Assembly: GCF_000376385.1 (NCBI RefSeq)
Contig: NZ_AQWN01000007.1
Coordinates: 1 to 64,000 of the forward strand
DNA from: Desulfurispora thermophila DSM 16022
GTDB lineage: Bacteria; Bacillota; Desulfotomaculia; Desulfotomaculales; Desulfurisporaceae
Direction: 5' to 3'
Length of the DNA stretch: 64,000 bases
In this document: in pieces, positions 4,073 through 19,859 of the stretch
Position numbering within the stretch: position 1 is the stretch's first letter
Layout of the letters: every line of letters starts with the position of its first letter
The notes under the pieces: generated by a model
The model's database searches: none
Told to the model about the DNA's origin: nothing
The model's input: the letters and a program-made list of their open reading frames with translations, nothing else
Translations under genes and position numbers: made by a program

Positions 4073-5005
4073 TTGGCACAATACCTGCTGCGCCGCTTTG
4101 CCACCATCACCCTGGCCATGTGGCTGATTGTCACCATCACCTTTGCCATCATGCACGCCATTCCGGGCGGGCCCTTCGCCTCGGAGAAAAAGGTGCCCGA
4201 TGCGGTAAAGCGCAACCTGGAGGCCCGCTATCATTTAAATGACCCGTTGTACAAGCAGTACGTTGACTATTTAAAAAACCTGCTGCGGGGCGACCTGGGC
4301 CCGTCCTTTAAGTACGAATACCGCACCGTAAACAGCATTATTAAAGAAAGCTTTCCCGTGTCCGCCATTTTAGGCTCGCTGGCCATTGCCTTTTCCCTGC
4401 TGGTGGGCCTGCTGGCCGGTATCATTTCCGCCCTGCGCCAGAACCGCTGGCAGGACTACACGGCCATGATCCTGGCCACCCTGAGCTTTTCTGTGCCCAG
4501 TTTTATCCTGTCCGGGCTTTTGATGTACGTGTTCGCCTATAAACTGCAGTGGCTGCCGCCGGCCATGTGGGGCACCTGGCAGCAGGCCATTCTGCCCACC
4601 CTGGCCCTGTCCGCCCTGCCCACGGCCTTCATTGCCCGGCTGACCCGCTCCAGCATGCTGGAGGTGCTGCAGCAGGACTATCTGAAAACCGCCCGGGCCA
4701 AGGGCCTTTCCGAAAGGGCCATCGTGGTGCGCCACGCCCTGCGCAACGCCATCCTGCCCGTGGTCACCTATGTGGGGCCGCTGATCGCCACCGTGCTCAC
4801 GGGCAGCTTTGTGGTGGAGTCCATTTTTGCCATCCCCGGCCTGGGCCGCTGGTTTGTGCTCAGTGTGACCAACCGGGATTATACGGTGATCCTGGGCACC
4901 ACCGTGTTTTACAGTGCCTTCTTGATGGCCATGAACTTCCTGGTGGACCTGGCCTATGTGGCTATCGACCCGCGCATTAAGCTGGTGGACCGCAGGGATG
5001 TGTAA
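4073..5005 (+). CDS. oppB: oligopeptide ABC transporter permease, OppB-type
   Basis: A 310-aa inner-membrane permease of the BPD_transp_1 family. It forms the translocation channel with OppC. The N-terminal helix ends in the typical VTITFAIMHAIPGGPF, and the EAA loop (TARAKGLSERAIVVRHALRN) that contacts the ATPases is seen near residues 205-225. The start is TTG after a GGATGGGGGG-rich region. It is followed 24 nt later by oppC. Length and topology are normal for the family. Confidence 0.93.
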   Translation: MAQYLLRRFATITLAMWLIVTITFAIMHAIPGGPFASEKKVPDAVKRNLEARYHLNDPLYKQYVDYLKNLLRGDLGPSFKYEYRTVNSIIKESFPVSAILGSLAIAFSLLVGLLAGIISALRQNRWQDYTAMILATLSFSVPSFILSGLLMYVFAYKLQWLPPAMWGTWQQAILPTLALSALPTAFIARLTRSSMLEVLQQDYLKTARAKGLSERAIVVRHALRNAILPVVTYVGPLIATVLTGSFVVESIFAIPGLGRWFVLSVTNRDYTVILGTTVFYSAFLMAMNFLVDLAYVAIDPRIKLVDRRDV

Positions 5006-5029
5006 TGTAATTAGAAAAGAGGTGAAAAC

Positions 5030-5956
5030 GTGCCGGAAAATATACAGCTGACACCGCAGATGTTTGCGCCGGTTACTGAAAAAAGCATGACCGGCGAGGA
5101 AATTACCCGCCCACCGGTCAGTTACTGGCAGGATGTGTGGATGCGCCTGAAGAAAAACCGCCTGGCCATGAGCGGCCTGGTGATCATCGCCCTGCTGGCC
5201 TTCATGGCCATCTTTGGCCCCTACATGTCGGGGCACACCTACTACGACCAGGACCTGCTGCGCATTAATCAGCCTCCCGGCAGCCAGTACTGGTTCGGCA
5301 CCGACAACCTGGGACGGGACCTGTTCACCCGCGTCTGGTACGGCGCCCGCATCTCCCTGAGCATCGGTCTTTTAACCAGCATCATCTGCCTGGTCATCGG
5401 CGTGCTCTACGGCGGCATATCGGGCTATCTGGGCGGCCGGGTGGACGAAATCATGATGCGCCTGGTGGAAGTGCTCTACAGCATTCCCTTTTTGCTTTAT
5501 GTGATATTGCTCATGGTGCTCATGGAACCGGGCCTGAAAGCCATCTTCATCGCCCTGGGGCTGGTCTACTGGCTGAACATGGCCCGCATAGTGCGCGGCC
5601 AGGTGCTGGCCTTAAAAGAACAGGAATATGTCCTGGCGGCGCGCCTTTTAGGCGCGGGTACCTGGCGCATTTTACTGCGCCACCTCATTCCCAACACCAT
5701 GGGACCGATTATTGTGACCATGACCCTGCTGGTGCCCGAAGCCATTTTCACCGAGGCCTTTTTGAGTTTCCTGGGCCTGGGCGTATCGGCGCCCATGGCC
5801 AGCTGGGGCGTGCTGGCCAGCGAAGGCCTGCAGGGCCTGCGCAACTACCCCTGGCAGCTCTTTTTCCCGGCCTTTTTCATCAGCTTGACCATGCTGGCCT
5901 TCAACTTTTTGGGCGACGGTTTGCGGGACGCTCTGGACCCGCGCCTGCGCCGCTGA
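5030..5956 (+). CDS. oppC: oligopeptide ABC transporter permease, OppC-type
   Basis: A 308-aa second permease subunit. The OppC_N segment (VWMRLKKNRLAMSGLVII) comes first, then the family motif FGTDNLGRDLFTRVWYGAR near residue 90. The EAA loop is AARLLGAGTWRILLRHLIPN. The start is GTG with an AGAGGTG site. It lies between oppB and oppD, with an 18-nt gap to oppD. It forms the transmembrane pore together with OppB. Confidence 0.93.
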   Translation: MPENIQLTPQMFAPVTEKSMTGEEITRPPVSYWQDVWMRLKKNRLAMSGLVIIALLAFMAIFGPYMSGHTYYDQDLLRINQPPGSQYWFGTDNLGRDLFTRVWYGARISLSIGLLTSIICLVIGVLYGGISGYLGGRVDEIMMRLVEVLYSIPFLLYVILLMVLMEPGLKAIFIALGLVYWLNMARIVRGQVLALKEQEYVLAARLLGAGTWRILLRHLIPNTMGPIIVTMTLLVPEAIFTEAFLSFLGLGVSAPMASWGVLASEGLQGLRNYPWQLFFPAFFISLTMLAFNFLGDGLRDALDPRLRR

Positions 5957-5974
5957 TGGGAGGCGTGCCCAACA

Positions 5975-6967
5975 GTGAATGAACCTTTATTGCAAATAAA
6001 AGACCTGTATGTCAATTTCCGCACTTACGCCGGCGAAGTGCAGGCGGTGCGGGGCGTCAGCCTGGCTCTGAATGCCGGGGAGAGCATAGCCATTGTGGGG
6101 GAATCGGGCTGCGGCAAGAGCGTCACCGCCCAGTCCATCATGAAGCTGATTCCGGTGCCGCCCGGACGCTATGCCGGGGGACAAATAATCTTCAGCGGTC
6201 AGGACCTGCTGACCAAGAGCGAGGCCGAGATGCAGCGCGTGCGCGGCAAGAGAATCGGCATGATCTTCCAGGACCCCATGACCTCGCTCAACCCCACCAT
6301 GAAGGTGGGCAAGCAGATTGTGGAGATGCTGCAGAGGCACACTGATTTAACCCCGGCGCAGCAAAGGGAGCGGGCGGTGGAAATGCTCTCCCTGGTGGGG
6401 CTGCCCAACCCGGCAAAGCGCTTCGAGCAGTACCCCCACGAGTTCAGCGGCGGCATGCGCCAGCGGGCCATGATTGCCATGGCCATGGCCTGTAATCCCG
6501 CCCTGCTGCTGGCCGACGAGCCCACCACGGCTCTGGATGTGACCATCCAGGCCCAGATTCTGGAACTGATGCAGGAACTGCGGGCCAAACTGGGTACGGC
6601 CATTATCCTGATCACCCACGACCTGGGTGTGGTGGCCGGCTTTGCTTCCCGGGTACTGGTCATGTATGCCGGCAAAGTAGTGGAGAGCGCCCCCACGCGC
6701 CAGCTGTTCTACCATCCGCAGCACCCCTACACACAAGGGCTGCTGGCTTCGGTGCCCCGTCCGGCCCAGGGCGTGCGCAAAAAGCTGCAGCCCATTGCCG
6801 GCCGGCCGCCCGATTTGCTAAAGCCCCCGCCCGGCTGTGCTTTCTGGCCGCGCTGCCGGCGGGCCATGCGGGTGTGCCAGCAGCTCACCCCGCCGGAGTT
6901 CACAGTCCAGCCGGGACACACAGTCAGCTGCTGGCTGATGCATGAATACGCCCGGGTAACCAGTTGA
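5975..6967 (+). CDS. oppD: oligopeptide ABC transporter ATP-binding protein, OppD-type
   Basis: A 330-aa ATPase that powers peptide import. Walker A is GESGCGKS near residue 43, the signature is FSGGMRQR, Walker B is LLLADEPT, and the H-loop His is present (LITHDLG). The C-terminal oligopeptide/dipeptide extension has the Cys-rich PPGCAFWPRCRRAMRVC, which in OppD homologues binds an Fe-S cluster. The start is GTG with GGGAGG upstream. A 104-bp gap separates it from oppF. Confidence 0.93.
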   Translation: MNEPLLQIKDLYVNFRTYAGEVQAVRGVSLALNAGESIAIVGESGCGKSVTAQSIMKLIPVPPGRYAGGQIIFSGQDLLTKSEAEMQRVRGKRIGMIFQDPMTSLNPTMKVGKQIVEMLQRHTDLTPAQQRERAVEMLSLVGLPNPAKRFEQYPHEFSGGMRQRAMIAMAMACNPALLLADEPTTALDVTIQAQILELMQELRAKLGTAIILITHDLGVVAGFASRVLVMYAGKVVESAPTRQLFYHPQHPYTQGLLASVPRPAQGVRKKLQPIAGRPPDLLKPPPGCAFWPRCRRAMRVCQQLTPPEFTVQPGHTVSCWLMHEYARVTS

Positions 6968-7071
6968 TGCCCAGAGGAGAGGCTTATCCAGATCAAGCCG
7001 CCCAGTGTTTCTTACGCTTGCTGACGTTGTGGGCAGGCGGATGTAGAACATTTTTCAGGAGGTAATCCATT

Positions 7072-8025
7072 TTGGCGGAAAAACTGCTGCAAATAGAAGA
7101 CCTGCACAAGCACTTCCGGGTGGGCAAAGGGCAGATCTTAAAGGCCGTGGACGGCGTGTCCCTGCACATTTACCGGGGGGAAACCCTGGGCGTGGTGGGT
7201 GAAAGCGGCTGCGGCAAGACCACTTTGGGCCGCACTGTGGTGCGCCTGTACCAGCCCAGCGCCGGGCGGGTGCTGTTTGACGGCATTGATGTGCACCGGG
7301 CCGGCGGAAAGGAGAGAGAAAGCCTTTTCCGGCGTATGCAGATGATCTTCCAGGACCCCTATGCCTCGCTCAACCCGCGCATGACCGTGGGGGAAATCAT
7401 CGGTGAGGCGCTGGACATTCACGGGCTGGCCAAAGGCGCCGCCCGCCGGGAGCGCATAGCCGAGCTGCTGGCCATGGTAGGGCTGGCCGGTGAATACGCC
7501 GGGCGCTTCCCCCACGAGTTCAGCGGCGGTCAGCGGCAGCGGGTGGGCATTGCCCGCGCTTTGGCCGTGCAGCCCGAGTTTATCGTCTGCGATGAGCCCA
7601 TTTCGGCCCTGGACGTATCCATCCAGGCCCAGGTGGTCAATTTGCTGGAGGAACTGCAGGAAAAGCTGGGCCTTACGTACATGTTCATCGCCCACGATCT
7701 GTCCATGGTGCGCCATATCAGCGACCGGGTGGCCGTCATGTACCTGGGCCGGGTGGTGGAGCTGGCCGGCTCGGACGAGCTGTACGAAAATCCGCTCCAC
7801 CCCTATACCCGTGCTCTGCTCTCGGCCATCCCCGTGGCCGACCCCGATGTGGAAGCCGGGCGGCAGCGCATCATTCTGCAGGGCGATGTACCCAGCCCGA
7901 TAAACCCACCCGCCGGGTGCAGCTTCCACACCCGCTGCCCGCAGGCAGAAGAGGTTTGCCGCCACGCAGTGCCAGGCTTCCGGGAAGTGGTGCCGGGGCA
8001 CTTTGTGGCCTGTCACGGGGTGTAA
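7072..8025 (+). CDS. oppF: oligopeptide ABC transporter ATP-binding protein, OppF-type
   Basis: A 317-aa second ATPase subunit. Walker A GESGCGKT, signature FSGGQRQRV, Walker [13 protein letters not shown] and H-loop FIAHDLS are all intact. The C-terminal Cys cluster ([17 protein letters not shown]) is also kept. The TTG start follows a CAGGAGGT site. It is the last gene of the operon, and a strong terminator follows at 8078. Confidence 0.93.
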
Positions 8026-8077
8026 TAATCGCCTTGTGCCGGAGTAAAGGGAATGAATAGCATCTGTTCGTGAACAA

Positions 8078-8108
8078 GAAACAGGACCCGCTGGAGGTCC
8101 TGTTTTTT
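8078..8108 (+). terminator. rho-independent terminator of the opp operon
   Basis: The stem AAACAGGACC/GGTCCTGTTT with a 7-nt loop is followed by TTTTTT. It ends the oppABCDF transcript. Confidence 0.9.
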
Positions 8109-8182
8109 GATCGTTATTTTTAAATAAAAATAAATAGCCGGCAGGAATTTGCGTAAATAGATCGAATTGTTTAAATATCTAA

Positions 8183-8194
8183 ATGTATATACAT
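8183..8194. promoter_or_regulatory. putative HutC/GntR operator, copy 1
   Basis: The perfect palindrome ATGTATATACAT contains GTATATAC, which fits the HutC-subfamily GntR operator consensus GTMTAKAC. An 18-bp stretch (8181-8198), preceded by AAATATCTA, is repeated at 8517-8534. A HutC-type regulator is encoded at 14808-15560 in the same gene block. Binding is inferred. Confidence 0.6.
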
Positions 8195-8229
8195 ATATGG
8201 TATAGGAGCCGGGTTAAGCCAATTCATAT

Positions 8230-8424
8230 GTGAATGGCTCCCAGAAATTGAGACAGGAGGAAGTGTTCACCCCCCTGGCCACCAGGATGGGAGCATCGGC
8301 AGCCAAAGCCTCCGGCAATCCGCCGGTGTTTATGCTGCTGCATAAAGGGGCAGACGGCTTCCTTTCGGATCTGCAGTTTAAGACATTCTACATGCCCATC
8401 TTCCGGGGTGGGTATTTGGTATAG
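8230..8424 (+). pseudogene. remnant of a UroD/MtaA-type methyltransferase gene
   Basis: A GTG-started 64-codon frame whose residues ~13-57 resemble an internal stretch of the intact UroD-family protein at 11108-12469. HKGADGFLSDLQFKTFYMP here aligns with HKACFLSPKQFDTFYWP there (about residues 239-255), and the preceding LATRMGA.../LATADPL segment also matches. Both flanks of the domain are missing, so this is best read as a decayed fragment and not a small gene. It lies between the two GTATATAC palindromes. Confidence 0.6.
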
Positions 8425-8518
8425 ACTTTTGATATTTACCGCAATTAATATTTTTATAAAAACTAATAAAATGCCTGAAGGAAAAAATCAAAATTCAGCG
8501 AAATATCTAACCGTATAA

Positions 8519-8530
8519 ATGTATATACAT
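8519..8530. promoter_or_regulatory. putative HutC/GntR operator, copy 2
   Basis: The same ATGTATATACAT palindrome as at 8183-8194, again with AAATATCTAA just upstream. It lies 110 bp before the first MFS gene, where it could control the whole methyl-transfer operon. Confidence 0.6.
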
Positions 8531-8640
8531 ATATATTGCTAGGGAGGGTTGGCAAATTTTTGGGGGAGGTGCTGGATCTGCGATAAGTAAGTGACGTGAA
8601 GTACAGTAAGCGATTACAAAAAAACAAGGGAGGAATAAAT

Positions 8641-9840
8641 ATGGCATCTATGCCCGCTGCCAGTGAAAGGGAAGCCAGCAGTTACAGGTGGGTTATACTC
8701 ATTCTGATGGTGAGTTGCTTTTTGTTCACCTTTATCACCAGATTCTCCTGGCCGCCATTGATTCCAGTGGTGGTTCCGGTGCTGGGGATGAAAATGACCC
8801 AGGCCGGGGCATTCATGAGCGCGTTTTATTTTGGGTATATCATCACGCAGATTCCGGCCGGGGTACTGGCTGACCGTTTTGGTGTGCGCGCTATCCTTGC
8901 TTTAAGTCTGATCATCGAAGGTATTAGCACTTTTGCTATGGGTTATATGACTACATTCGATATGGGCTTCTGGCTCAGGTTTATTACCGGTCTGGGGGCA
9001 GGTGCCGTGTATGCGGCCTGTTCACGTGCATTAATGGAATGGTTTCCCGCCCAGGAACGAGGCACGGCTTTTGGTATCATGCTTGCTGCTCCTTCGGGGG
9101 GAATTGTTTTATCAAACTACATTGTTCCGGCTTTAAACAAGTCTTTTGGCTGGCAGGGCGCACTGCAGATTATTGGTGTAGCAACGGCTATAGTAGGCGT
9201 ACTGATATTTGTGCTGGTACGCACTTCTAATGAAGTTACGTCCAGCGGAAGCATGTTTGGCGGGTTTAAAGTGGTGTTTGGAAGTAAGGATTTGATGCTT
9301 ACTGCACTGGCCGGTTTCTGCTTGATGTGGGTGGAGCTCGGCACCGCGACCTGGGCGAATGCATATATCAAGAAGCTGGGGTATACTGTACAAGCAGCCG
9401 GTTTGGTAATGATATTCTACGGTATAGGCGGTATACTGGCCCCGCTGTTTTCAGGCTATATTTCAGATAAAATTGGTCAGAGAAAAAATATTCTTATCCT
9501 ATCCTATGCGCTGATTATTCCCTTAACCATAGCATTTGGTTATCAAACTTCTATGACCGCGCTTTGCACGCTGGGCTTTATCTTTGGATTTTGTTCTTAC
9601 ATGGCCAACCCTCATCTGACGGTGATGATTTCAGAATTTGCCGGTAAAGAATGGGCGGCTACAGCCAATGGAACAGCCAATTTTATTTTCCAGCTTGCTT
9701 CCATGATTGGTCCTCTGGTGCTCGGTTGGTCCATTGACTTTACGGGGAGCTTCAATTCCGTGTGGTGGATTATGGCGGCCGGTCCGCTGCTGGGTATCAT
9801 CCTGCTTCTGCCGGTGCGTCCGGAAAACAAACGGGCTTAA
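8641..9840 (+). CDS. MFS transporter, first of a tandem pair
   Basis: A 399-aa major facilitator with 12 predicted helices. The MFS motif-A-like ADRFGVR follows helix 2, and FMSAFYFGYIITQIPAG precedes it. The ATG at 8641 is chosen over an upstream GTG because AGGGAGG lies 7-8 nt before it. It is closely similar along its length to the next gene, so the pair is a tandem duplication. As the first gene of the corrinoid methyltransferase operon, it probably imports the methylated substrate or exports the demethylated product. The substrate class is unknown. Confidence 0.87.
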   Translation: MASMPAASEREASSYRWVILILMVSCFLFTFITRFSWPPLIPVVVPVLGMKMTQAGAFMSAFYFGYIITQIPAGVLADRFGVRAILALSLIIEGISTFAMGYMTTFDMGFWLRFITGLGAGAVYAACSRALMEWFPAQERGTAFGIMLAAPSGGIVLSNYIVPALNKSFGWQGALQIIGVATAIVGVLIFVLVRTSNEVTSSGSMFGGFKVVFGSKDLMLTALAGFCLMWVELGTATWANAYIKKLGYTVQAAGLVMIFYGIGGILAPLFSGYISDKIGQRKNILILSYALIIPLTIAFGYQTSMTALCTLGFIFGFCSYMANPHLTVMISEFAGKEWAATANGTANFIFQLASMIGPLVLGWSIDFTGSFNSVWWIMAAGPLLGIILLLPVRPENKRA

Positions 9841-9873
9841 GGTTGTGGTTTTGGCGACAAGGGGGCCTAAGAC

Positions 9874-11070
9874 ATGGAACTTGTAGCGCAAGATATTAAA
9901 CCTTTACGATACCGGTGGGTAATACTCACTTTGTGTGCAGCCTGTTTTTTATTTACATTTATTACCAGATTTACCTGGCCCCCTTTAATTCCCGTAGTAG
10001 TGCCCTCTCTGGGCATGAAAATGAGCCAGGCCGGCGCGTTTATGAGTGCGTTTTATATAGGTTATATCATCACGCAAATCCCCGCGGGCATCCTGGCGGA
10101 CCGTTTTGGGGTGAGGATAATCCTGGCCGGCAGTCTCATTTTGGAAGGGTTATCTACCACATCTTTAGGTTTTATAAGCACATACGAAACCGGTGTTTAC
10201 TTGAGGATCATGTCCGGTTTAGGTGCCGGCGCAGTTTATGCTTCCTGCTCCCGCGCGCTTATGGAATGGTTTCCGGCTTACGAAAGAGGACGCGCCTTTG
10301 GTATTCTGCTGGCTGCTCCTTCCGGAGGCATTCTGGTGACCAATCTAATTGTACCTCCTTTAAATGACTTTATTGGCTGGAAAGGTGCTTTCCATACAGT
10401 TGGTTTTTTAACCATCATGGCAGGGATTCTGGTTTTCCTTTTTATGCGGTCTCAATGCGAACAATCAGGCAATGACAAAAGTTTACTTACCGGTTTTAAA
10501 GTGATATTCAGCAATAAATATTTAATTATGACCGCACTGGCCGGATTTTGCCTGATGTGGCTGGAGTTAGGCATGGCCACCTGGGCTAATATGTATATCA
10601 AGAGATTGGGATATACAGTTAGTACTGCCGGGAGCGTAATGGTGTCTTATGGTTTGGGAGGTGTTATTGCTCCTTTAATTTCAGGTATTGTCTCTGATAT
10701 AACAAGACAGCGCAAATGGATAATTATTATTTCTTATGTACTAGTAATTCCGCTAACATTATTATTTGGGTCCCAGAAAGATCTTTCCGTTTTGCTTTTG
10801 ATGGGTTTTTTATTGGGTTTTAGTTCATATATAGCAAATCCCCAGCTAACAGTAATGATATCTCAATTTGCCGGAAAAAACTGGGCAGCTACTGCCAATG
10901 GCGTATCCAACTTTTTGTTTCAGATTGCTTCTTTGATTAGTCCCTGGTTAATCGGTTTAGTTCTTGATGTTACCGGTAATTTTAGCTGGGTTTGGCTGAT
11001 TATGGCGGCAGGACCACTGATGGGTGTATTGTTTATGTTACCTGTGAGGCAAGAAAAATCAGCACTTTGA
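9874..11070 (+). CDS. MFS transporter, second of a tandem pair
   Basis: A 398-aa MFS carrier, a paralogue of the preceding gene 33 bp upstream. Blocks such as TRFTWPPLIPVVVPSLGMKM, IPAGILADRFGVR and ALAGFCLMWLELGMATWAN are almost the same in both. Loops at the domain linker (after residue 195) differ most. The start is ATG with AAGGGGGCC upstream. Two carriers may separate uptake from efflux, or widen the substrate range. This is inference from the operon context only. Confidence 0.87.
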   Translation: MELVAQDIKPLRYRWVILTLCAACFLFTFITRFTWPPLIPVVVPSLGMKMSQAGAFMSAFYIGYIITQIPAGILADRFGVRIILAGSLILEGLSTTSLGFISTYETGVYLRIMSGLGAGAVYASCSRALMEWFPAYERGRAFGILLAAPSGGILVTNLIVPPLNDFIGWKGAFHTVGFLTIMAGILVFLFMRSQCEQSGNDKSLLTGFKVIFSNKYLIMTALAGFCLMWLELGMATWANMYIKRLGYTVSTAGSVMVSYGLGGVIAPLISGIVSDITRQRKWIIIISYVLVIPLTLLFGSQKDLSVLLLMGFLLGFSSYIANPQLTVMISQFAGKNWAATANGVSNFLFQIASLISPWLIGLVLDVTGNFSWVWLIMAAGPLMGVLFMLPVRQEKSAL

Positions 11071-11107
11071 GCTGATAGCAGAAACTTATGAAAGGGAGGC
11101 ACTATTA

Positions 11108-12469
11108 ATGTTAGCAGATGTTAGACAGCTTTATGAAACAAGGCTTGGTCGTTATCAGGCGGCCATTGCCCTGGAGAAAACCGACCGCATACCCATAGCG
11201 ACCGGTAGCAATTATTTTGCCGAGGTGTATTCAGGAAATACCAAACAGGACACTATTTACGACAGTGTGAAATGGCTCCAGGCCGAAGAAGCTTTTATCC
11301 GCGATTTTCCGGAAGTGGATGTGCTGCGCAATAACCGCATCTGGGGTCCTCTTTACGACGCGGTCGGTTGCAAAACTTATCGTTTGCCTGGCCGCGACCT
11401 GCCCCCCAACACCCAGTTCCAGTTTGTAGAAGATGAGTATATGAAAGCTGACGAGTACGATGTTTTTATCAAAAATCCGCTGGAATTCATGCTGGATCGC
11501 TTTCTGCCCCGGGTGCTGGGTGAGCTGGCCGAACCCGGTTCCATACGGGCGCGCATGGCTCTGTTAAAAGGCGGTATGGCCCAGGCCCAGATGGGCCAGA
11601 TCATGCGCAACAGGGCCATCTATTTAGAAGAAAAGCTGGGTATGCCGCAGCCCATGACCGGCTTTTTCCTGGCTCCCTTTGATGCGCTGGCCGACGTCAT
11701 GCGGGGTTTGAAGGGTACACTGCTCGATATATATCGCCAGCCGGACAAGGTCTTGGAAGCCTGCGATGTGCTGGTTGACGAAATGGTAAATCTTGCCCTT
11801 GCTACAGCGGACCCGCTGAAACGTTACCCCATCTTCGTGCCAACCCACAAGGCGTGCTTCTTGTCGCCCAAGCAATTTGATACCTTCTACTGGCCTTCCT
11901 TCAAGAAGACCATGGAACGGATCATCGAGGCGGGATACACCATCCGCGCCTATCTGGAGGGGGACTGGGGACACCACATCCATCACATGCTGGAATTGCC
12001 CAAAGGGAAAGTGCTGTGTGATATTGATAACCAGGGAGACATTTTCAAAGCGAAAGAAGTGCTGGGAGGCCATCAATGCGTTGCCGGCGGCATACAGGAT
12101 TCCTTGTTTATCCTTGGTACGCCGCAGGAAATTCGGGAAAGAGTTAAACTCCTTTGCGAAACGGTTGGGAAAGACGGAGGATTTATTATCAATGGTGGGT
12201 GTAACATTCCCTATGACACGAAGCCGGAAAACTACCGGGCCATGATTGATGCTGTAATTGAATACGGGACTTATGACAGGAACTTTACCCCCAAACCCAA
12301 AACTGTGCAACCAGATGGAAAAGAGCCGGTCAAGCTTAAAATGGTCACCCCGTGGGAAGTAAAACTTGCCGAGCTGGGAACCGTGATGGGCGAGGAAAGT
12401 TTAATTCGCAAAGCTTGGGAGCAGCTTGAGGTTATGGGGTACACCTGGATCTGGCAGTGGGTACTGTAA
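11108..12469 (+). CDS. UroD/MtaA-family corrinoid methyltransferase
   Basis: A 453-aa protein of the uroporphyrinogen decarboxylase superfamily, in the branch that transfers methyl groups to or from corrinoid proteins and not the haem enzyme. The C-terminal IINGGCNIPYDTKPENYRAM matches the conserved Cys loop of this branch. The His-X-Cys zinc site known from MtaA/MtbA is not evident: the aligned strand reads LEGDWGHH. It lies directly upstream of a corrinoid protein gene, as expected for the substrate-specific methyltransferase (MT1) of a demethylase. Start ATG has GGGAGG 9 nt upstream. The methyl donor is unknown; methoxyaromatics or methylamines/betaines are options. Confidence 0.83.
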   Translation: MLADVRQLYETRLGRYQAAIALEKTDRIPIATGSNYFAEVYSGNTKQDTIYDSVKWLQAEEAFIRDFPEVDVLRNNRIWGPLYDAVGCKTYRLPGRDLPPNTQFQFVEDEYMKADEYDVFIKNPLEFMLDRFLPRVLGELAEPGSIRARMALLKGGMAQAQMGQIMRNRAIYLEEKLGMPQPMTGFFLAPFDALADVMRGLKGTLLDIYRQPDKVLEACDVLVDEMVNLALATADPLKRYPIFVPTHKACFLSPKQFDTFYWPSFKKTMERIIEAGYTIRAYLEGDWGHHIHHMLELPKGKVLCDIDNQGDIFKAKEVLGGHQCVAGGIQDSLFILGTPQEIRERVKLLCETVGKDGGFIINGGCNIPYDTKPENYRAMIDAVIEYGTYDRNFTPKPKTVQPDGKEPVKLKMVTPWEVKLAELGTVMGEESLIRKAWEQLEVMGYTWIWQWVL

Positions 12470-12559
12470 GAGAAGGCGGCTGCTCATCACAGGAATAGAT
12501 TACGTGCAGTGCTATTGGCATTTTATTTAAAATCGATAAAATTTGAAGGAGGAAGAAAA

Positions 12560-13186
12560 ATGACCGAGCTGGCCAAAGCGTTGATGGAACTGGATGAGCA
12601 AAAAGTTTACCAATTGGTTGAGGAAAAACTTAATAATGGCGTTTCCCCGCTGGATATACTGGCCGAGTGCAATGAAGGCATGGCGGGAGTGGGCGATTTA
12701 TTTTCCCAGGGGCAATATTTCCTGAGCCAGATGCTCTTTTCGGCCGAGATCTTCAAGAACGTCATGAAGCAGCTGGAGGCCGTGCTGCCCCAGACGCAGG
12801 AAAGCACGGGCAAGAACAAGGTAGTGATTGGTACAGTCAAAGGCGATATCCACGACATTGGCAAAAACATCGTGGTCAGCCTGCTGAAAGGTTCGGGCTT
12901 TGAGGTCATTGACCTGGGCGTGGACGTGCCGGCGGAAAAATTTGTGGCCGCGCTGCAGGAAAGCGGGGCAAAGGTGCTGGGTTTAAGCGCTCTGCTCAAC
13001 TTCACCTACCCGGAAATGAAAAATGTGGTGCAGGCGGTTACAGATGCCGGCCTGCGGGATCAAGTGACCATTATCATTGGCGGAGCTCCCTGCAATGAGC
13101 AGGTGCGGCAGTTTGCAGGCGCCGACTATTATGCGGAAGATGCCGTAGCAGGGGTTAACATTTGCAAAAAGGTTTACGCTTGCTGA
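12560..13186 (+). CDS. corrinoid (B12-binding) methyl-carrier protein 1
   Basis: A 208-aa methyltransferase corrinoid protein of the MtaC/MtbC/MtvC type. An N-terminal helical cap (~residues 1-85) is followed by a Rossmann B12 domain. The base-off cobalamin motif DIHDIG, with the cobalt-ligating His, is present in GTVKGDIHDIGKNIV, then GLSALL and IIGGAP. The ATG at 12560 follows AGGAGG, and an upstream TTG extension is rejected. It accepts the methyl group from the MT1 protein upstream and hands it to the methyltransferase encoded next. A GC-rich hairpin follows. Confidence 0.92.
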   Translation: MTELAKALMELDEQKVYQLVEEKLNNGVSPLDILAECNEGMAGVGDLFSQGQYFLSQMLFSAEIFKNVMKQLEAVLPQTQESTGKNKVVIGTVKGDIHDIGKNIVVSLLKGSGFEVIDLGVDVPAEKFVAALQESGAKVLGLSALLNFTYPEMKNVVQAVTDAGLRDQVTIIIGGAPCNEQVRQFAGADYYAEDAVAGVNICKKVYAC

Positions 13187-13193
13187 AAAAACG

Positions 13194-13225
13194 GCCTCCG
13201 GCCGGGGGTAACCGCGGCCGGAGGC
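13194..13225 (+). terminator. intercistronic GC-rich hairpin
   Basis: A perfect 10-bp stem GCCTCCGGCC/GGCCGGAGGC with a 12-nt loop and no T tract. It lies between the corrinoid protein and the MeTr gene, so it is more likely an RNA-processing or stability stem than a full terminator. Confidence 0.6.
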
Positions 13226-13244
13226 TGCCCATCAGGAGGTACAC

Positions 13245-14045
13245 ATGCTTATTATTGGCGAAAAGATTAACTCTACGCGCAAAAGCATAGACAGAGCAGT
13301 ACGGGCGAAAGATGTAGAAGTAATACAGGAAGAAGCAAAAAAACAGATCGAGGCCGGGGCACACATGCTGGATGTCAATTGCGGCACTCTGGATGCCCAG
13401 GACGAGCCGGCTACCATGGAGTGGCTGGTCCGGACGGTGCAGGAGGCTGCCGGTGTACCCCTGTGCATTGACAGTCCCAATCACAAGGCCCTGGCGGCCG
13501 GATTGAGTGTGCACCGGGGCAAGGCCATGATCAATTCCATCAGTGGTGAAACGGAAAGATTTGCCAATGTCCTGCCTCTGGTTAAACAGTACGGCGCCTC
13601 GGTAGTGGCTCTCTGCATGGACGACCGGGGCATTCCGGCCAGCATGGGACAGGCCCTGGAAGTGGGCACAAAACTGGTAAACAGACTTCTGGATGCCGGA
13701 GTGCCTGTGGAGGATATTTACTTTGATCCTCTGGTGCGCTCGGTGGCCACCAACCCGGAAACCGTGCTGGAAACATTACAGCTCATGGAGGAAATGTCGG
13801 CCCGTTTCAGCGGACTGCATTTTGTTTCCGGGCTGAGCAATGTATCTTTTGGATTGCCCGAGCGCCGGCATTTGAACCGGGCCTATGTGGTTTTAAGCAT
13901 GGCCAGCGGGCTGGACGCCGTCATTGTCGACCCCCTGGACAGCACCTTGATGGCTCTGGCGTACGCCACAGAGGCCCTGCTGAACAAAGACCGTTTCTGT
14001 ATGCAGTACATCCGCAGCTACCAGCAGGGAAAATTGAAAGGGTAG
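13245..14045 (+). CDS. methyltetrahydrofolate:corrinoid methyltransferase (AcsE/MtvA-like)
   Basis: A 266-aa single-domain pterin-binding TIM barrel, the usual size for AcsE/MtvA/MtgA. The N-terminal IIGEKINSTRKSI and the MLDVNCGT and LCIDSPNHKAL segments form the pterin pocket in this family. It is expected to move the methyl group between the corrinoid protein and tetrahydrofolate (the MT2 role), feeding the Wood-Ljungdahl methyl branch. ATG start with TCAGGAGGT upstream. It is followed after 4 nt by the activation-domain gene. Confidence 0.9.
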   Translation: MLIIGEKINSTRKSIDRAVRAKDVEVIQEEAKKQIEAGAHMLDVNCGTLDAQDEPATMEWLVRTVQEAAGVPLCIDSPNHKALAAGLSVHRGKAMINSISGETERFANVLPLVKQYGASVVALCMDDRGIPASMGQALEVGTKLVNRLLDAGVPVEDIYFDPLVRSVATNPETVLETLQLMEEMSARFSGLHFVSGLSNVSFGLPERRHLNRAYVVLSMASGLDAVIVDPLDSTLMALAYATEALLNKDRFCMQYIRSYQQGKLKG

Positions 14046-14049
14046 AAAG

Positions 14050-14766
14050 TTGAGAAATCGGGCAATGTATGGTTTAATGGATTATTATAAGCTGAATGTT
14101 CAGATATCCGAAGATGATGTTTCCCGTACCGGATGGGGTCCGGGGGCCGGGCTGAGCAACGCTAATTCTCGTTCGTTACTTAATGAGATCTTGCAGGAAG
14201 CGCTTGAACTGGCCCGGGCAGAGGCTGTTTGCCGGGTAGTGCCGGTGCTGGGAATAAGTGACAGCAAGATTTTTCTGGCAGGTGGCCAGGCGCTGACCAG
14301 CAAATTGCTGGTCCGCCTGGCCTGCACTGCCCAGAGCCTGTTTTTGGCTGTCTGCACTCTGGGACGGGAAATTGATCGCCGGGTGGAGGAGTACAGCCGG
14401 GCCGGGCTGACGGCCCATGCCTATTTTCTGGACATAGCCGGTACATGTATTATTGAAGCAGCAGGCAGACAACTGGTGAGCATGATTAAAGAGCAACTCG
14501 CAAGCAGTGGTCTGCAGATCACCATACCCCTGGGTCCCGGTCATTCCTACTGGGAGAGCCTGCAGGACCAGCAAATCATCTATGATCTGGTCAATCCGAC
14601 CCGGATTGGGGTGAGCATACTGGAAAGCGGCGTTATGTTACCCAAAAAGTCTGTGAGCATGGTGATGGGCATCGGGCACCAGCTGCCGCCCAGCGCGGCA
14701 AACCATTGCCATTACTGCAGTATGGGACAGAAATGCCCTCTGAGCCGGGTACGGCAACCGAACTAG
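14050..14766 (+). CDS. stand-alone MetH-activation-domain-like protein
   Basis: A 238-aa protein related to the C-terminal activation domain of B12-dependent methionine synthase. The clearest match is PLGPGHSYWESLQDQ...VNPTRIGVSILESGVMLPKKSVSMVMGIG, the AdoMet/cobalamin-facing part. The C-terminus has Cys residues in CHYCSMGQKC, which could bind a metal or Fe-S cluster. The TTG start at 14050 follows AGGGTAG; a later in-frame ATG is possible. It probably supports the corrinoid proteins, by reactivation or chaperoning. This is inferred from family and position, because the operon already has an ASKHA activator. Confidence 0.8.
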   Translation: MRNRAMYGLMDYYKLNVQISEDDVSRTGWGPGAGLSNANSRSLLNEILQEALELARAEAVCRVVPVLGISDSKIFLAGGQALTSKLLVRLACTAQSLFLAVCTLGREIDRRVEEYSRAGLTAHAYFLDIAGTCIIEAAGRQLVSMIKEQLASSGLQITIPLGPGHSYWESLQDQQIIYDLVNPTRIGVSILESGVMLPKKSVSMVMGIGHQLPPSAANHCHYCSMGQKCPLSRVRQPN

Positions 14767-14807
14767 AATCTGTATCAGAACATTTTCTGGAGGGGGGGAT
14801 AAAGGGT

Positions 14808-15560
14808 TTGGCCGGTGAAAAAATTAACAGAAATTCCTTCGTGCCTCCTTATTTTCAACTGGCCCAAATTTTAGAAGAGAAAATTCTGGCGGGGGAACTC
14901 AAACCTGGCGACTCGCTGCCTTCGGAAAATGATCTGGGTAAAGAATATAATTTAAGCCGCATGACTGTGCGCAAGTGCCTGAATGTGCTGGCCGAGAGGG
15001 GACTGATTTCCGCCCATCCGGGACGGGGGACCTTTGTTTCCCGGCCGGCTCTGGACCGGGCGGTGTTTACCATTGAGGAGTACCGGAATGAGGTTTCCCG
15101 GCGTGGCTGGCAGCCGGAAGCCAGGCTGATGGCCGTGCATGTGCTGAAAGCGGCCGAAGGGATTACTGAAAAACTGGATCTGCAGCCCGATGAGCGGGTT
15201 TTGTATTTTTGCCGCCTGCTTTTGGCCGACAGTGCGCCGCTGGCCATAGAGCGCAAATACATGCGCTTTAAAAAGGGCACCCCCATACTGGAAAACGAGC
15301 TGCAGTACAAAGCCTTTTCCGAAGTGATAGCCATGCACACTGAAGTGCTGCCCGTGCGCAGCCGGATGGTGCTGCGGCCGGCTCTGGCGGAAGAAGAAGA
15401 TGCTTCCCTTTTGCAGATCCCGCCCGGTACGCCCGTTTTTCGCCTGGAACAGTATTTGTATGCCAATAATGAAACAGTAGCCGGCTGGGGTTTTTTTATT
15501 TTCCGCGGCGATCGTTTCCCTTTAATTTCCGAAGTGCGGCCGCTGAAGGAGGTGGAGTGA
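14808..15560 (+). CDS. GntR-family regulator, HutC subfamily (UTRA domain)
   Basis: A 250-aa repressor-type regulator. The N-terminal winged helix has the GntR signature GDSLPSENDLGKEYNLSRMT followed by LAERGLISAHPGRGTFV, and the C-terminal ~150 residues form a UTRA ligand-binding domain. The start TTG at 14808 is chosen because GGAGGGGGG precedes it by about 10 nt. Longer starts would overlap the preceding gene. The probable operators are the two GTATATAC palindromes at 8183 and 8519. It would sense the methylated substrate or a product, with autoregulation from inside the operon. Confidence 0.9.
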   Translation: MAGEKINRNSFVPPYFQLAQILEEKILAGELKPGDSLPSENDLGKEYNLSRMTVRKCLNVLAERGLISAHPGRGTFVSRPALDRAVFTIEEYRNEVSRRGWQPEARLMAVHVLKAAEGITEKLDLQPDERVLYFCRLLLADSAPLAIERKYMRFKKGTPILENELQYKAFSEVIAMHTEVLPVRSRMVLRPALAEEEDASLLQIPPGTPVFRLEQYLYANNETVAGWGFFIFRGDRFPLISEVRPLKEVE

Positions 15561-15561
15561 G

Positions 15562-16191
15562 TTGCCTTCCCTGGCGCAGGTGATCTGCGATTTAAACGAA
15601 AGCTTGGCTTTGGAGCTGGTCAAGCACCGTCTGGCAATGGGAGACAAACCCCTGGATATTGTGGAAGAATGCCGAAACGGCATGATCGCAGTGGGGGAGC
15701 GCTATGCCCGGGGAGAGTATTTCCTGGGTGACCTGGTATTGTCGGCGGAAATTTTTCATGAGATCATGCGGGTGCTGGCTCCGACCCTGGATGTGAAAAA
15801 AACGGCGCGCCGGCCTGTGGGCAAAATTGTGTTCGGAACGGTGGAAGGGGATATTCACGACATTGGAAAAAACATTACCATTTCATTGTTGCGCTGTTAC
15901 GGCTTTGAAGTTTACGACCTGGGGGTCAATGTAGCGCCCGAAAAATTTGTTCACTATCTGAAGGAGACGGGGGCCGATATTCTCTGTCTGTCCGCCCTGC
16001 TCTCCAGCTGTTTTGAAGCCCTGCAGCGCACGGTAAAACTGGTGCGCCTGTTTGATGAGCAGGGCAGGATTAAAATCCTGATCGGGGGCCTGGTCAATGA
16101 AAAGGTGCGGCAGTATGCCGGGGCGGATGACTGGGTAGATGATGCCCGCCGGGGGGTGACCATATGCCAGAAATGGATGGGAGTGTTGTAA
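15562..16191 (+). CDS. corrinoid (B12-binding) methyl-carrier protein 2
   Basis: A 209-aa paralogue of the corrinoid protein at 12560, with the same two-domain layout and the cobalamin motif DIHDIG (GTVEGDIHDIGKNI). The TTG start lies 1 nt after the stop of the regulator, behind GGAGGTGG, so the genes are translationally coupled. A second carrier in one operon suggests a second MT1 partner. The convergent UroD-like protein at 18002-18859 or the lost gene remnant at 8230 are candidates. Confidence 0.92.
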   Translation: MPSLAQVICDLNESLALELVKHRLAMGDKPLDIVEECRNGMIAVGERYARGEYFLGDLVLSAEIFHEIMRVLAPTLDVKKTARRPVGKIVFGTVEGDIHDIGKNITISLLRCYGFEVYDLGVNVAPEKFVHYLKETGADILCLSALLSSCFEALQRTVKLVRLFDEQGRIKILIGGLVNEKVRQYAGADDWVDDARRGVTICQKWMGVL

Positions 16192-16192
16192 C

Positions 16193-18028
16193 TTGGTGGT
16201 TACTGTCGAATTTGAACCTGTTGGCCGCCGTGTAGAGGTAGAGCCGGGCCGGACTGTGCTGCAGGCTGCCCGGGATGTGCTGTCACTGGACGCCGGGGGA
16301 GTAAATGCGCCCTGCGGTGGCAAAGGATTGTGCGGACGTTGCCGGGTGCGCCTGGTGCAGGGGGAGCTTTCACCCCCGGGTGAGCTGGAGAGAAGAATGC
16401 TGGGCCCCCGGGAACTGGCGGATGGTTACCGCCTGGCCTGCCAGGCGCTCATCCTCGGTCCGGTCAAGGTGGAAATACCGCCGGAAACTCTGGCCGGGCG
16501 GCAGAGTTTGCAGGTGGCGGGAACCGCTGAGGAGATTGCGTTGGAACCCGTTATCAAGCGGTATCATATACCTCTGCAGGCGACCACTGTGGATTTCCCC
16601 TTTTCCACCTGGCAACAGGTGGAAGTTTATTTGCGGCAAAATTACGGCATGGAAGACATAAGTATCGACTCCGTGCTGTTTAGCCAGGTGGAGACACTGG
16701 CCGGTAATGATCACCTGACGGTTTCCCTGCGCGGGCGGGAGATCATCAATGCTTTCTGGACGGCCGGCAGCAGAAAACCGCTCGGCCTGGCGGTGGATCT
16801 GGGCACCACCAAGATGGCCGGTTTTTTGCTGGATCTGGAAACCGGCAGCACCCTGGCCGCTGATGGCATTTTAAATCCACAGATTGCTTACGGGGAAGAT
16901 GTGATGAGCCGGCTGGCCTATGCCCTGGAGGGAGCCGAGCAATACAGCCGGATCACCCGGGTGCTGGTGGAGGGGCTGGATCGCCTGCTGCAAACTCTCT
17001 GCAGCCAGGCCGGCGCGCGGCCGGAAGATGTGGAAGAAGCCGTGATTGTGGGCAACACGGCCATGCACCACCTGCTGCTGGGGTTGCCGGTGGGCCAGCT
17101 GGCCAGATCCCCTTATGTGCCGGCGCTGACGCTGCCGCTGGAAGTCAAGGCGCGCCAGCTGGGCCTCGGTATGGCCGGAGGCGCTGTTGTCTATCTGGTG
17201 CCGGCCGTGGCCGGTTTTGTGGGCGGCGACCATGTGGCCATGATCTTGAGCAGCCGCATCCAGGAGGCGCCCGGCGTTACCCTGGGCCTGGACATCGGCA
17301 CCAACACCGAAATTGTCCTCGCCCGCAGCGGCGAGATGATTTCATGTTCCTGCGCTTCCGGTCCGGCCTTTGAAGGGGCCCACATTCAGCAGGGCATGCG
17401 GGCGATTGACGGTGCCGTCAGCAAAGTCTCCGTGACGTCCGGCGGCAGGGAGGTGCACTGCGAGACCATTGGGGGCAAGGCACCGGTGGGCATTTGCGGT
17501 TCGGGCATCCTGGACGCCGTGGCCGGTCTTTACCGGGCGGGTGTAATCAGCGCCAGCGGCCGGCTGGACACCGGGCATCCCCGGGTCCGGTGGAGCAGCG
17601 ACAGGAAGACTGCTGAATATGTGCTGGTGCCGGCAGGGGAAAATGGTGCCGGCCGGGATATTGTGGTAACGCAGAAGGACATCAGCGAAATCCAGCTGGC
17701 CAAGGCGGCTATCGCCGCCGGCATACAGGTGCTGCTGGCACAAACCGGGCTGCAATACACAGATATTGACAGAGTGGTTGTAGCCGGAGCTTTTGGCACC
17801 CACCTGCAGCTGGAAAGTGCCATCGCCATTGGCATGCTGCCCCATCTGCCGCTGCAGCGCTATCAGCAGGTGGGCAATGCGGCCGGCGCCGGGGCCCGGA
17901 TGATTCTTCTGTCGGCCGCTGAGCGCCGGCGAGCGGTGGAAATTGCCAGAAATATCAAATATATCGAGCTGGCGGCCAGGGCCGAGTTCAACAGTATCTA
18001 TTTAAGCCAGATCAGGTTCCCCGGCTGA
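16193..18028 (+). CDS. reductive activator of corrinoid proteins (2Fe-2S + ASKHA)
   Basis: A 611-aa RACE-type protein. An N-terminal plant-type 2Fe-2S ferredoxin domain (~residues 1-90) has Cys ligands in APCGGKGLCGRC and a later Cys in RLACQA. After a middle domain, a DUF4445/ASKHA ATPase region includes VDLGTTKMAG, GLDIGTNTEI and GAFGTHLQLESA. Such proteins use ATP to reduce inactive Co(II) corrinoid back to Co(I). The TTG start is 1 nt after the corrinoid gene stop. Its 3' end overlaps the convergent UroD-like gene by 27 bp. Confidence 0.92.
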   Translation: MVVTVEFEPVGRRVEVEPGRTVLQAARDVLSLDAGGVNAPCGGKGLCGRCRVRLVQGELSPPGELERRMLGPRELADGYRLACQALILGPVKVEIPPETLAGRQSLQVAGTAEEIALEPVIKRYHIPLQATTVDFPFSTWQQVEVYLRQNYGMEDISIDSVLFSQVETLAGNDHLTVSLRGREIINAFWTAGSRKPLGLAVDLGTTKMAGFLLDLETGSTLAADGILNPQIAYGEDVMSRLAYALEGAEQYSRITRVLVEGLDRLLQTLCSQAGARPEDVEEAVIVGNTAMHHLLLGLPVGQLARSPYVPALTLPLEVKARQLGLGMAGGAVVYLVPAVAGFVGGDHVAMILSSRIQEAPGVTLGLDIGTNTEIVLARSGEMISCSCASGPAFEGAHIQQGMRAIDGAVSKVSVTSGGREVHCETIGGKAPVGICGSGILDAVAGLYRAGVISASGRLDTGHPRVRWSSDRKTAEYVLVPAGENGAGRDIVVTQKDISEIQLAKAAIAAGIQVLLAQTGLQYTDIDRVVVAGAFGTHLQLESAIAIGMLPHLPLQRYQQVGNAAGAGARMILLSAAERRRAVEIARNIKYIELAARAEFNSIYLSQIRFPG

Positions 18029-18859
18029 AATCTGGTCGGCCAGCCGGTAGATATGCTTTAGCCTCTCCAGTTGTTGAGCACTGGAGATGCCGCAGGCCGA
18101 GGCCAGAATGAGCGGATAGCTTTGGGAAAGCCCGGCAATGCACTGCCTGATTTCCGCCGCCTGCTCTTCCACCCGGCCCGGTCCCATCAGCCAGGCGGCC
18201 GGGATGCCCCCCAGCAGGGTGGCCTGCCGGGGCAGGCAGCGCTCCAGTTCATCCGGGGTCATGGCCTCGGGTTCCAGGTTGAAGACCGTAAAGCCCTCGG
18301 CGGTGAGTAAGGGCAGGACGGCCGACACTTTGCCGTCCGAGTGAAAGCCCAGCGGCAGACCGGCCGGCAGGGATTCTTTCATCTGCCGGTACAGGGGCAA
18401 AAGGGCGCTTCTAAACTGGGCGGGGGAAAAATACGGCCCGTGGTTATAAGCGATATCATCGCACAGGATGAGCATATCGGCGCCGGCCCGGGCGGCGGCG
18501 GTCAGCTCGGCGGCGGCCTGTGCAGCGGTTTTCTCAAAACGATCCGCCAGGCCGTCGGGCTGTGCAAACCAGTAGAGCACGTCCATAAAGCCGTGCTCGG
18601 CCACGGCCCGCTCAAAGGGCCCGTCCACGGTCACGGCGCAGAGCAGGCCGGCGGCATGGGCCTTTTGCACCAGCCACTCCATGGTGCCGCCCTGGAGAGG
18701 CAGATTTTCCAGCGGGCTGGTGTAGCTGAAAAAGCAGATGTCGGTGCCCAGGCTGGAGGCGAGGGCAATTAAAGACTCCTGCCCTTGTGGCAAACCTATT
18801 TCTTGCAAAACTTCCCCGGCAATCCACAGCTCGCCCCGGGGAATTTTTCTTTTGGCCAT
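18002..18859 (-). CDS. UroD-family methyltransferase-like protein, convergent
   Basis: A 285-aa member of the UroD superfamily, clearly shorter than the enzyme at 11108. Conserved pieces include ADMLILCDDIAYNHGPYFSP, GLPLGFHSDGKVSAVLPLL and FNLEPEA. The usual zinc His-X-Cys appears as HSDG, so the metal site differs. The ATG at 18859 is preceded by GAGGGAG. It runs against the corrinoid operon and could supply a second methyl donor to corrinoid protein 2. Substrate unknown. Confidence 0.8.
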   Translation of the reverse strand: MAKRKIPRGELWIAGEVLQEIGLPQGQESLIALASSLGTDICFFSYTSPLENLPLQGGTMEWLVQKAHAAGLLCAVTVDGPFERAVAEHGFMDVLYWFAQPDGLADRFEKTAAQAAAELTAAARAGADMLILCDDIAYNHGPYFSPAQFRSALLPLYRQMKESLPAGLPLGFHSDGKVSAVLPLLTAEGFTVFNLEPEAMTPDELERCLPRQATLLGGIPAAWLMGPGRVEEQAAEIRQCIAGLSQSYPLILASACGISSAQQLERLKHIYRLADQISAGEPDLA

Positions 18860-18941
18860 GCATACTCCCTCTTTTTTTGGACCGGCTAAAGTCCGCATTG
18901 TGCTTGCGCTACAATTTTATTGCTGCCGTTTCGCTGTTGGC

Positions 18942-19643
18942 TTAAAGCTCCAGCACAGGGTTTGCCGCGTTCACAAGCCCTGTTTTCACCTGACAGCCCA
19001 AAACACTGCTCAAAAAAGCAGCCAGTTCGTCGCGGGCGGCGGTTACCGCGTCCAGGTTGCTATCATGGAACCCGTCAATGGGGAAAAAGATATCCCGGCT
19101 GGCGGTGGTAATTTTGCCGTCCTCGCTCTGCCGCCAGATCCAGCGGCGGGTCTTGATGGTGTTGCCGCTGGCGTAAACCAGCTCGCCCGGGCCGGGCTGC
19201 TCCGCCTCCTGTTTGCCGAAGGGCAGGAAGGTATCCTCCGGCCGGGAAAAGCGCACCATGATGTCGCCCGTAAAGCGGGCCATGTCATGTGCCCCCATGG
19301 GCACCAGGTGCTTTAAACAAAAGGCGTTGGCCAGGTCCACCACGGGGCTGATCCGGGGGCAGTCCCCCCCTTTGGCCAGGCGGCTGAGCAGTGCTTCGAT
19401 GGAGGCGGGAAACTTGTTCGGGTTGATGCCCAGGCGGCTCATAGCCTGGCGGTAGGGAAGGCAGGCCGGGTGCTCTTTGACGTTTACCCCGGCGAACTGT
19501 TCCCGCACCCGGGCCACCTGCTCCTTGAGCAGCTGCTCCACAGCGGGCAGCGGGCGGCTGTTGTCCACTCCCCGGGCCACCACCACGCCGAAACAAACGC
19601 CGGGCAGTTGTTGAAAAACAGCTTCTTCTACAACAAAGCGCAT
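18942..19643 (-). CDS. B3/B4 (tRNA-editing-type) domain protein
   Basis: A 233-aa stand-alone B3/B4 domain, the fold found in the phenylalanyl-tRNA synthetase beta subunit, where it edits mischarged tRNA. Features include LPYRQAMSRLGINPNKFPAS, VVDLANAFCLKHLVPMGAHD and the C-terminal DIFFPIDGFHD. Stand-alone members are common in Firmicutes and their function is mostly untested. It is transcribed in the same direction as the UroD-like gene downstream, with an 82-bp gap. No synthetase is nearby. Confidence 0.82.
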   Translation of the reverse strand: MRFVVEEAVFQQLPGVCFGVVVARGVDNSRPLPAVEQLLKEQVARVREQFAGVNVKEHPACLPYRQAMSRLGINPNKFPASIEALLSRLAKGGDCPRISPVVDLANAFCLKHLVPMGAHDMARFTGDIMVRFSRPEDTFLPFGKQEAEQPGPGELVYASGNTIKTRRWIWRQSEDGKITTASRDIFFPIDGFHDSNLDAVTAARDELAAFLSSVLGCQVKTGLVNAANPVLEL

Positions 19644-19859
19644 CTTTTGGATACCCCTTTTCAGGCGTATTGAAAATGGTATAAAATGGTTTGTACTGAA
19701 AATTTGATCTTCCGGTAAACATTTTGTAAGATTTTTCGGCTATAATTGCAAATTATCCTGCGACATATTTTACCACAAAATGAGGGAGGTTCACTTTCAT
19801 TTTATACAAAGTGATGATCTAGCCAAATTACTGGAGACCTTTACTACAAGGAGCAGTCC

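Follow-up and report, generated by a model that had tools for sequence, protein, structure and literature searches.

Described corrinoid systems and the locus under study

The Cdm system of Acetobacterium dehalogenans (CdmBCA) combines a zinc-free methyltransferase 1 (MT1) of the UroD superfamily with a separate corrinoid protein (CP), a pterin-binding methyltransferase 2 (MT2) and an external activator (PMC13222342). No regulatory system has been identified for it, and how the 26 methyltransferase systems of that organism are regulated is largely unexplored (PMC13222342). The same set of components is known from the O-demethylases MtvB, OdmB and VdmB and from CobDH (Dhaf0720), a corrinoid protein whose gene lies together with those of an MT1 and an MT2 (PMC3727330). 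An operon with these components was analysed here in a stretch of 64,000 nucleotides of Desulfurispora thermophila DSM 16022 (contig NZ_AQWN01000007.1, positions 1 to 64,000), referred to below as the window. It occupied 8596-18028 on the + strand in the order MFS1, MFS2, MT1b, CP1, MT2, a MetH-activation-like protein, a GntR/UTRA regulator, CP2 and the corrinoid reductive activator RACE. All genes named in a first-pass annotation of the window were found on the strands given there, and their families were confirmed by domain matches. When compared with the Cdm system, MT1b was 34% identical to CdmB over 360 aligned residues, and the operon additionally held the two MFS genes, the MetH-activation-like gene, the regulator and the second CP. 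A three-component corrinoid demethylase, with an enzyme part that would add one more member to a kind already known, was well supported by these comparisons. Further, we lean, if only slightly, towards the reading that the repressor and CP2 form a two-protein sensor of methyl transfer.

The regulator shared with the HutC, YvoA and DasR repressors a GTNTANAC-type palindrome and the architecture of the HutC family, a GntR DNA-binding domain plus a UTRA domain. It differed from them in being linked to a dedicated CP and in remaining below the cut-off of the HutC histidine-utilisation equivalog (TIGR02018, 127.5 bits versus 220). The alignment to YvoA (4u0v, E 2.4e-34) began at residue 39, and the regulator was the only UTRA protein encoded in the genome. 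CarH is a single chain of a MerR domain and a B12 domain, which senses light via adenosylcobalamin. The likeness to CarH would lie in a cobalamin-binding helix-bundle/Rossmann module that is coupled, as proposed here, to a DNA-binding protein. In contrast to CarH, no MerR domain was fused to a B12 domain, the GntR/UTRA repressor and CP2 were encoded by two separate genes, and the signal would presumably be a methyl or redox state. No description of a GntR/HutC-corrinoid pairing as a sensor was found in the open-access literature, and an earlier account elsewhere is possible. In Eubacterium limosum SA11, GntR and B12-binding genes were reported beside genes of the trimethylamine-methyltransferase family (PMC4791908).

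Pairing of the regulator with a corrinoid protein and with operators

The gene following the regulator encoded a CP in most of the orthologous loci that had the regulator. A regulator-only search was performed over 398 genomes of the phylum, and 80 loci were fetched and mapped. A CP adjoined 9 of 9 unique regulators with at least 60% identity, 26 of 26 at 40-60%, 49 of 50 at 33-40%, 19 of 32 at 30-33% and 4 of 15 below 30%. Hence, at 33% identity or above, 84 of the 85 regulators remaining after the removal of duplicates were CP-adjacent, with L093 as the sole exception (loci are cited by L numbers). The pairs were found in about 100 loci of Bacillota, Chloroflexota, Thermodesulfobacteriota and Actinomycetota, and three of them had no UroD-type MT1 nearby.

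The CPs next to the regulators were also distinct in their descent. When 179 CPs were arranged in a tree, those linked to the regulator fell into two clades, and 15 label changes were counted as against a mean of 60.2 and a minimum of 50 after shuffling. A reverse search with CP2 gave 29 CPs, 17 of which were already in the tree, the new ones being two of the regulator-linked type and ten others; an adjacent regulator was recorded for 13 of 13 CPs of the regulator-linked type and for none of the 16 others. The pairwise distances over 55 loci correlated with r 0.81 between the regulator and its CP and with r 0.39 between the regulator and the catalytic CP, when the partial correlations were 0.76 and -0.02, respectively.

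The B12-binding and B12-binding_2 domains were present in CP1 and CP2 alike. The methyl-capping Phe of MetH, which we take to be Phe708, aligned with Tyr48 of CP2. A Tyr occupied this position in 99 of 99 regulator-linked CPs, whereas Phe was found in 65 of 80 others and in CobDH, which hints at a changed upper face in the regulator-linked proteins. The D, H and G residues of the DxHxxG cobalamin motif were kept in 100% of both regulator-linked groups, CP2 included, and the closest solved relative of CP2 was CobDH (4jgi, 8.4e-41). Since these residues were invariant, CP2 should bind cobalamin in the base-off/His-on mode, as does CobDH (PMC3727330). The TTG of CP2 lay one base after the stop codon of the regulator (15558-15560) and an AAGGAGG was located within the end of the regulator gene, which suggests that both are translationally coupled.

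The arrangement of the pairs varied. In L158, L159 and L160, one CP of the regulator-linked type was flanked by two different GntR regulators. In a second branch of pairs (L138-L143, L217-L229), the CP was located 5' of the regulator, often with RACE next, and some of these loci, such as L229 and L219, held several GTATATAC sites.

The first-pass annotation had matched palindromes at the 5' end of the operon to the HutC-type site GTMTAKAC. The exact TGTATATACA occurred three times in the genome of 2.82 Mb, at 8184, at 8520 and once on contig C4; the latter was taken as chance because it was inside an open reading frame, and the only two intergenic sites were those before this operon. The region of operator 2 was a repeat of 44 nucleotides of the operator 1 region with 77% identity. 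In the window, GTATATAC was observed three times versus 0.17 expected. Just 5' of the leading gene of the operon, exactly one TGTATATACA was present in each of L035, L044, L045, L103, L238, L239 and L240, which are seven relatives of this locus; it was usually embedded in a longer sequence, e.g., TCTAAATGTATATACATATAGA, and the extended sequence of operator 1 recurred there. Over 90 loci with a regulator-CP pair, 45 intergenic GTATATAC sites were counted versus 2.06 expected in shuffles (maximum 7), and these fell in 30 of the loci; the eight words that served as controls, mostly comparable in make-up, occurred 0-6 times each in the same 90 loci. The rarity in the genome and the phylogenetic footprinting in the orthologous operons strongly bore out the proposed HutC-type operator at a controlled promoter, and the counts over the 90 loci extended the assignment to related regulators with identities as low as about 30%. 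A third candidate, at 1147 of the window, read CGTATATACA and differed from the extended site by one mismatch.

The space between the two operators contained the remnant of a different UroD-type MT1 (MT1a), referred to as the scar, which the first-pass annotation had missed. Its translated piece was 63-67% identical to MT1a of L238 and L044, and its DNA was 75-78% identical over about 130 bp to the intact MT1a genes of L044 and L238, while no DNA match to the MT1b gene of the window was obtained. MT1a and MT1b share about 35% identity. Both were held by L044 in a single operon (operator, MT1a, CP1, MFS, MT1b and the remaining genes), MT1a only was found in L238, L239, L240 and L103, and MT1b only in L035, L045 and the window. 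Within the same genus, the regulator of L035 (MT1b only) was 94-95% identical to the regulators of the MT1a-only relatives, the UTRA domain likewise, and no alignment column in this same-genus comparison separated the regulators of MT1a-only from those of MT1b-only loci. By computation, the regulator was shown to be indifferent, at the level of its sequence, to which MT1 is present.

Proposed mechanism and alternatives

It was proposed that the MFS proteins import the substrate, a small and probably methoxyaromatic compound, that MT1b would transfer its methyl group to CP1, and that MT2 would pass it from CP1 to tetrahydrofolate and thus into the Wood-Ljungdahl pathway. The RACE protein, perhaps aided by the MetH-activation-like protein, would keep the cobalt reduced. 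The GntR protein would repress the operon by binding the TGTATATACA palindromes before it, and CP2, a separate cobalamin-carrying paralogue, would be the sensor partner of this repressor. When methyl groups flow, the cobalamin of CP2 would become methylated or change its redox state, CP2 would then alter the repressor, presumably through physical contact, and the operon would be induced by derepression. More tentatively, and with doubt still somewhat the stronger, a widespread two-component corrinoid sensor may be envisaged, in which a dedicated CP is the methyl- or redox-sensing subunit of a HutC-family repressor and by which anaerobes read methyl transfer onto cobalamin.

The main alternative, which we regard as somewhat unlikely, is that the UTRA domain binds the methylated substrate or the demethylated product directly, when CP2 is a second methyl carrier whose gene follows the regulator by chance. 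Several observations weigh against the sensing role of CP2, and part of them fit this alternative. The UTRA domain of the regulator was intact and related to those of YvoA and DasR, which bind sugar phosphates. Small molecules are the usual ligands of UTRA domains in the family, which leaves room for direct substrate sensing. All cobalamin ligands were kept in CP2. Of 74 loci with an MT1 and enough flanking DNA, 62 had a second CP, but in 12 the regulator-linked CP was the only one nearby, and therefore it may also carry methyl groups. Additionally, a Tyr at the capping position was found in 15 of 80 other CPs, and no natural regulator-CP fusion was present among the matches listed, where one frame of 809 residues was a regulator without a CP. 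However, direct sensing leaves unexplained why the CPs that track the regulator belong to clades of their own and not to the catalytic clade in about 100 loci of several phyla. A repressor reading the substrate directly would also need one inducer for both MT1a and MT1b in spite of their low identity; a signal downstream of MT1 and common to both would account more simply for the unchanged regulator, although the substrates of MT1a and MT1b might be related. A further and improbable alternative makes CP2 the carrier for another methyltransferase such as URO2, a short UroD-superfamily protein encoded convergently with the operon; the regulator, CP2 and URO2 would then form a side branch for the disposal or reuse of methyl groups, with no sensor. 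The URO2-like genes stand beside many regulator-CP pairs, at times as one unit (L192, L133), but many pairs had no URO2 nearby, and such a branch does not predict the co-evolution of a CP with a DNA-binding protein.

The nature of the substrate is independent of the question of sensing. As a first guess, it may be a methoxyaromatic acid, with a haloalkane in second place, because Desulfofundulus thermobenzoicus carries an orthologous operon (L043) and is on record as using methoxylated benzoates, going by the title of Tasaki 1992 among the references of PMC4585845. Chloromethane or another haloalkane in place of a methoxyaromatic compound is considered unlikely. It would agree with CdmB being the sole solved relative of MT1b found by profile and with both proteins lacking the zinc site; however, the 34% identity of this pair is similar to that of CdmB with the O-demethylase MtoB (31%), a gas would not require MFS importers, and the record of D. 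thermobenzoicus, as far as that title goes, points to methoxylated benzoates. Among the neighbours of the orthologues, no recurrent marker enzyme for the substrate was seen, only mixed MFS and TRAP transporters, tetrahydrofolate enzymes and unrelated genes.

A regulator with its own CP offers a direct and testable mechanism for the sensing of methylated substrates by anaerobes. If the proposed sensor is real, anaerobes would perceive methylated food via the state of a B12 protein and not by binding the food itself, one regulator could serve interchangeable methyltransferases, and the reading of methyl-corrinoid would join the modes of gene control already known for B12 proteins. The regulator, the adjacent CP and TGTATATACA together give a sequence marker with which target operons can be sought for dozens of methyltransferases that await characterisation.

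Enzymes and surroundings of the operon

Table 1. Features of the operon region, in positions of the window.
Feature	Position	Strand	Evidence and remarks
Operator 1	8178..8199		extended palindrome around TCTAAATGTATATACATATAT, core ATGTATATACAT; exact TGTATATACA at 8184-8193
Scar of MT1a (gene remnant of a different UroD-type MT1)	~8260..8410	+	between the two operators
Operator 2	8514..8535		second palindrome copy, directly 5' of the first intact gene; exact TGTATATACA at 8520-8529
MFS1, MFS transporter 1	8596..9840	+	MFS_1 6.1e-71; adjoins MT1 in many orthologous loci
MFS2, MFS transporter 2	9874..11070	+	MFS_1 2e-49
MT1b, UroD-superfamily corrinoid methyltransferase related to CdmB and O-demethylases	11108..12469	+	URO-D 1.9e-27
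CP1, catalytic corrinoid protein	12509..13186	+	B12-binding 2.3e-25; pyl_corrinoid 8.3e-50; placed among the MT1-adjacent CPs of the tree
MT2, AcsE/DhpS-like methyltransferase, corrinoid to tetrahydrofolate	13245..14045	+	Pterin_bind; PRK07535 334 bits (cut-off 259); 2yci 8.4e-57; 4o0q 2.9e-54
MetH activation-domain-like protein	14050..14766	+	invariant Cys220-x2-Cys223-x5-Cys229
HutC-family GntR/UTRA repressor	14706..15560 (real start near 14808-14817)	+	GntR 2.7e-22; UTRA 5.1e-24
CP2, regulator-paired corrinoid protein (proposed sensor subunit)	15562..16191	+	B12-binding 4.1e-18; falls in a regulator-linked CP clade
RACE, ferredoxin-domain corrinoid reductive activator	16193..18028	+	RACo_C_ter 1.5e-87; Raco_middle 2.6e-52; Fer2 1.3e-11
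URO2, short UroD-superfamily protein	18002..18898	-	URO-D 4.6e-15; HSDG motif; convergent with the operon

The first-pass annotation had read the locus as an inducible corrinoid demethylation pathway. The family matches, the gene neighbourhoods around about 30 orthologues and the operator footprinting all upheld this view, and a stand-alone CP, a pterin-binding MT2 and RACE shared the operon of MT1b. The reading was incomplete in one respect, because CP2 had been counted as a part of the enzyme, when the comparison ties it to the regulator.

The only solved relative of MT1b found by profile was CdmB (9rui, E 1.1e-50 and 1.1e-56). The AlphaFold2 model of MT1b (pLDDT 93.6) was a confident barrel of the UroD superfamily, and its Foldseek matches, among entries up to April 2026, were UroD and the methyltransferase 4ay7, with 9rui not among them. 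Clustering with the haem-pathway UroD, a possibility raised by the first-pass annotation, was not observed: the hemE model gave 26 bits versus a cut-off of 303, CdmB was the best solved relative, and an identity as haem UroD was rejected. The protein did not belong to the MtaA/CmuA family (TIGR01463, 42.1 bits versus a cut-off of 235.4), was also far below the cut-offs of the MtaA and MtbA models, and was less similar to CdmB than the at least 40% identity that was the limit of the conservation set in the CdmB paper (PMC13222342). About 30 orthologues of MT1b were recorded at 49-87% identity, followed by a gap down to 40%; they were carried by Desulfofundulus, Desulfoscipio, Desulfacinum, Sporomusa and Pelotomaculum and by deltaproteobacterial and actinobacterial metagenome-assembled genomes. 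The lack of the usual His-X-Cys zinc site in MT1, noted in the first pass, held: by our own reading of the profile coordinates, the positions of the MtaA zinc ligands read E284-x-D286 in MT1b, and E284 was invariant in 27 orthologues. The trait itself is not unusual, since CdmB has no zinc either (PMC13222342).

The MetH-activation-like protein itself had no Pfam match at E 0.001. The Met_synt_B12 family was matched by 17 of 17 aligned homologues at E<=1 (best 1.7e-6), and the best match of its AlphaFold2 model (pLDDT 86) was the MetH activation domain 1j6r (E 6.5e-13). The Cys-x2-Cys-x5-Cys tail was invariant across the homologues in the alignment and is possibly an Fe-S or zinc site, which suggests a redox activator distinct from RACE.

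The HSDG motif of URO2 was present in 19 of 20 homologues of about 300 amino acids, where it replaced the zinc-binding His-X-Cys-Gly. The URO2-like genes next to regulator-CP pairs are exemplified by L048:8877-9815 and L192:4293-5234. Elsewhere in the same genome (G000:C4:5018-6424, L001/L154), an open frame of 636 residues joined a UroD domain to a B12-binding domain.

The gene of MFS1 probably starts at the ATG at 8641 rather than at the GTG at 8596, judged by the preceding GGGAGG. No cobalamin riboswitch or other known RNA was found in 8000-19700 (Rfam), and a sigma-70 scan of the region upstream of the operon gave nothing exceeding chance. Genes of a dipeptide/oligopeptide-type ABC transporter (4073-8025) lay on the same strand directly upstream, and a terminator-like hairpin (8075-8109) was located between them and the operon. 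The genome was 99.6% complete, and the presence of the dsrA and carbon monoxide dehydrogenase/acetyl-CoA synthase (CdhC) genes indicated that the host reduces sulfate and has the carbonyl branch of the Wood-Ljungdahl pathway. Two CdhC matches with equal scores were recorded, G000:C1:19-483 at the end of contig C1 and G000:C6:216235-216699, and they are possibly a duplicated sequence or a contig overlap in the assembly.

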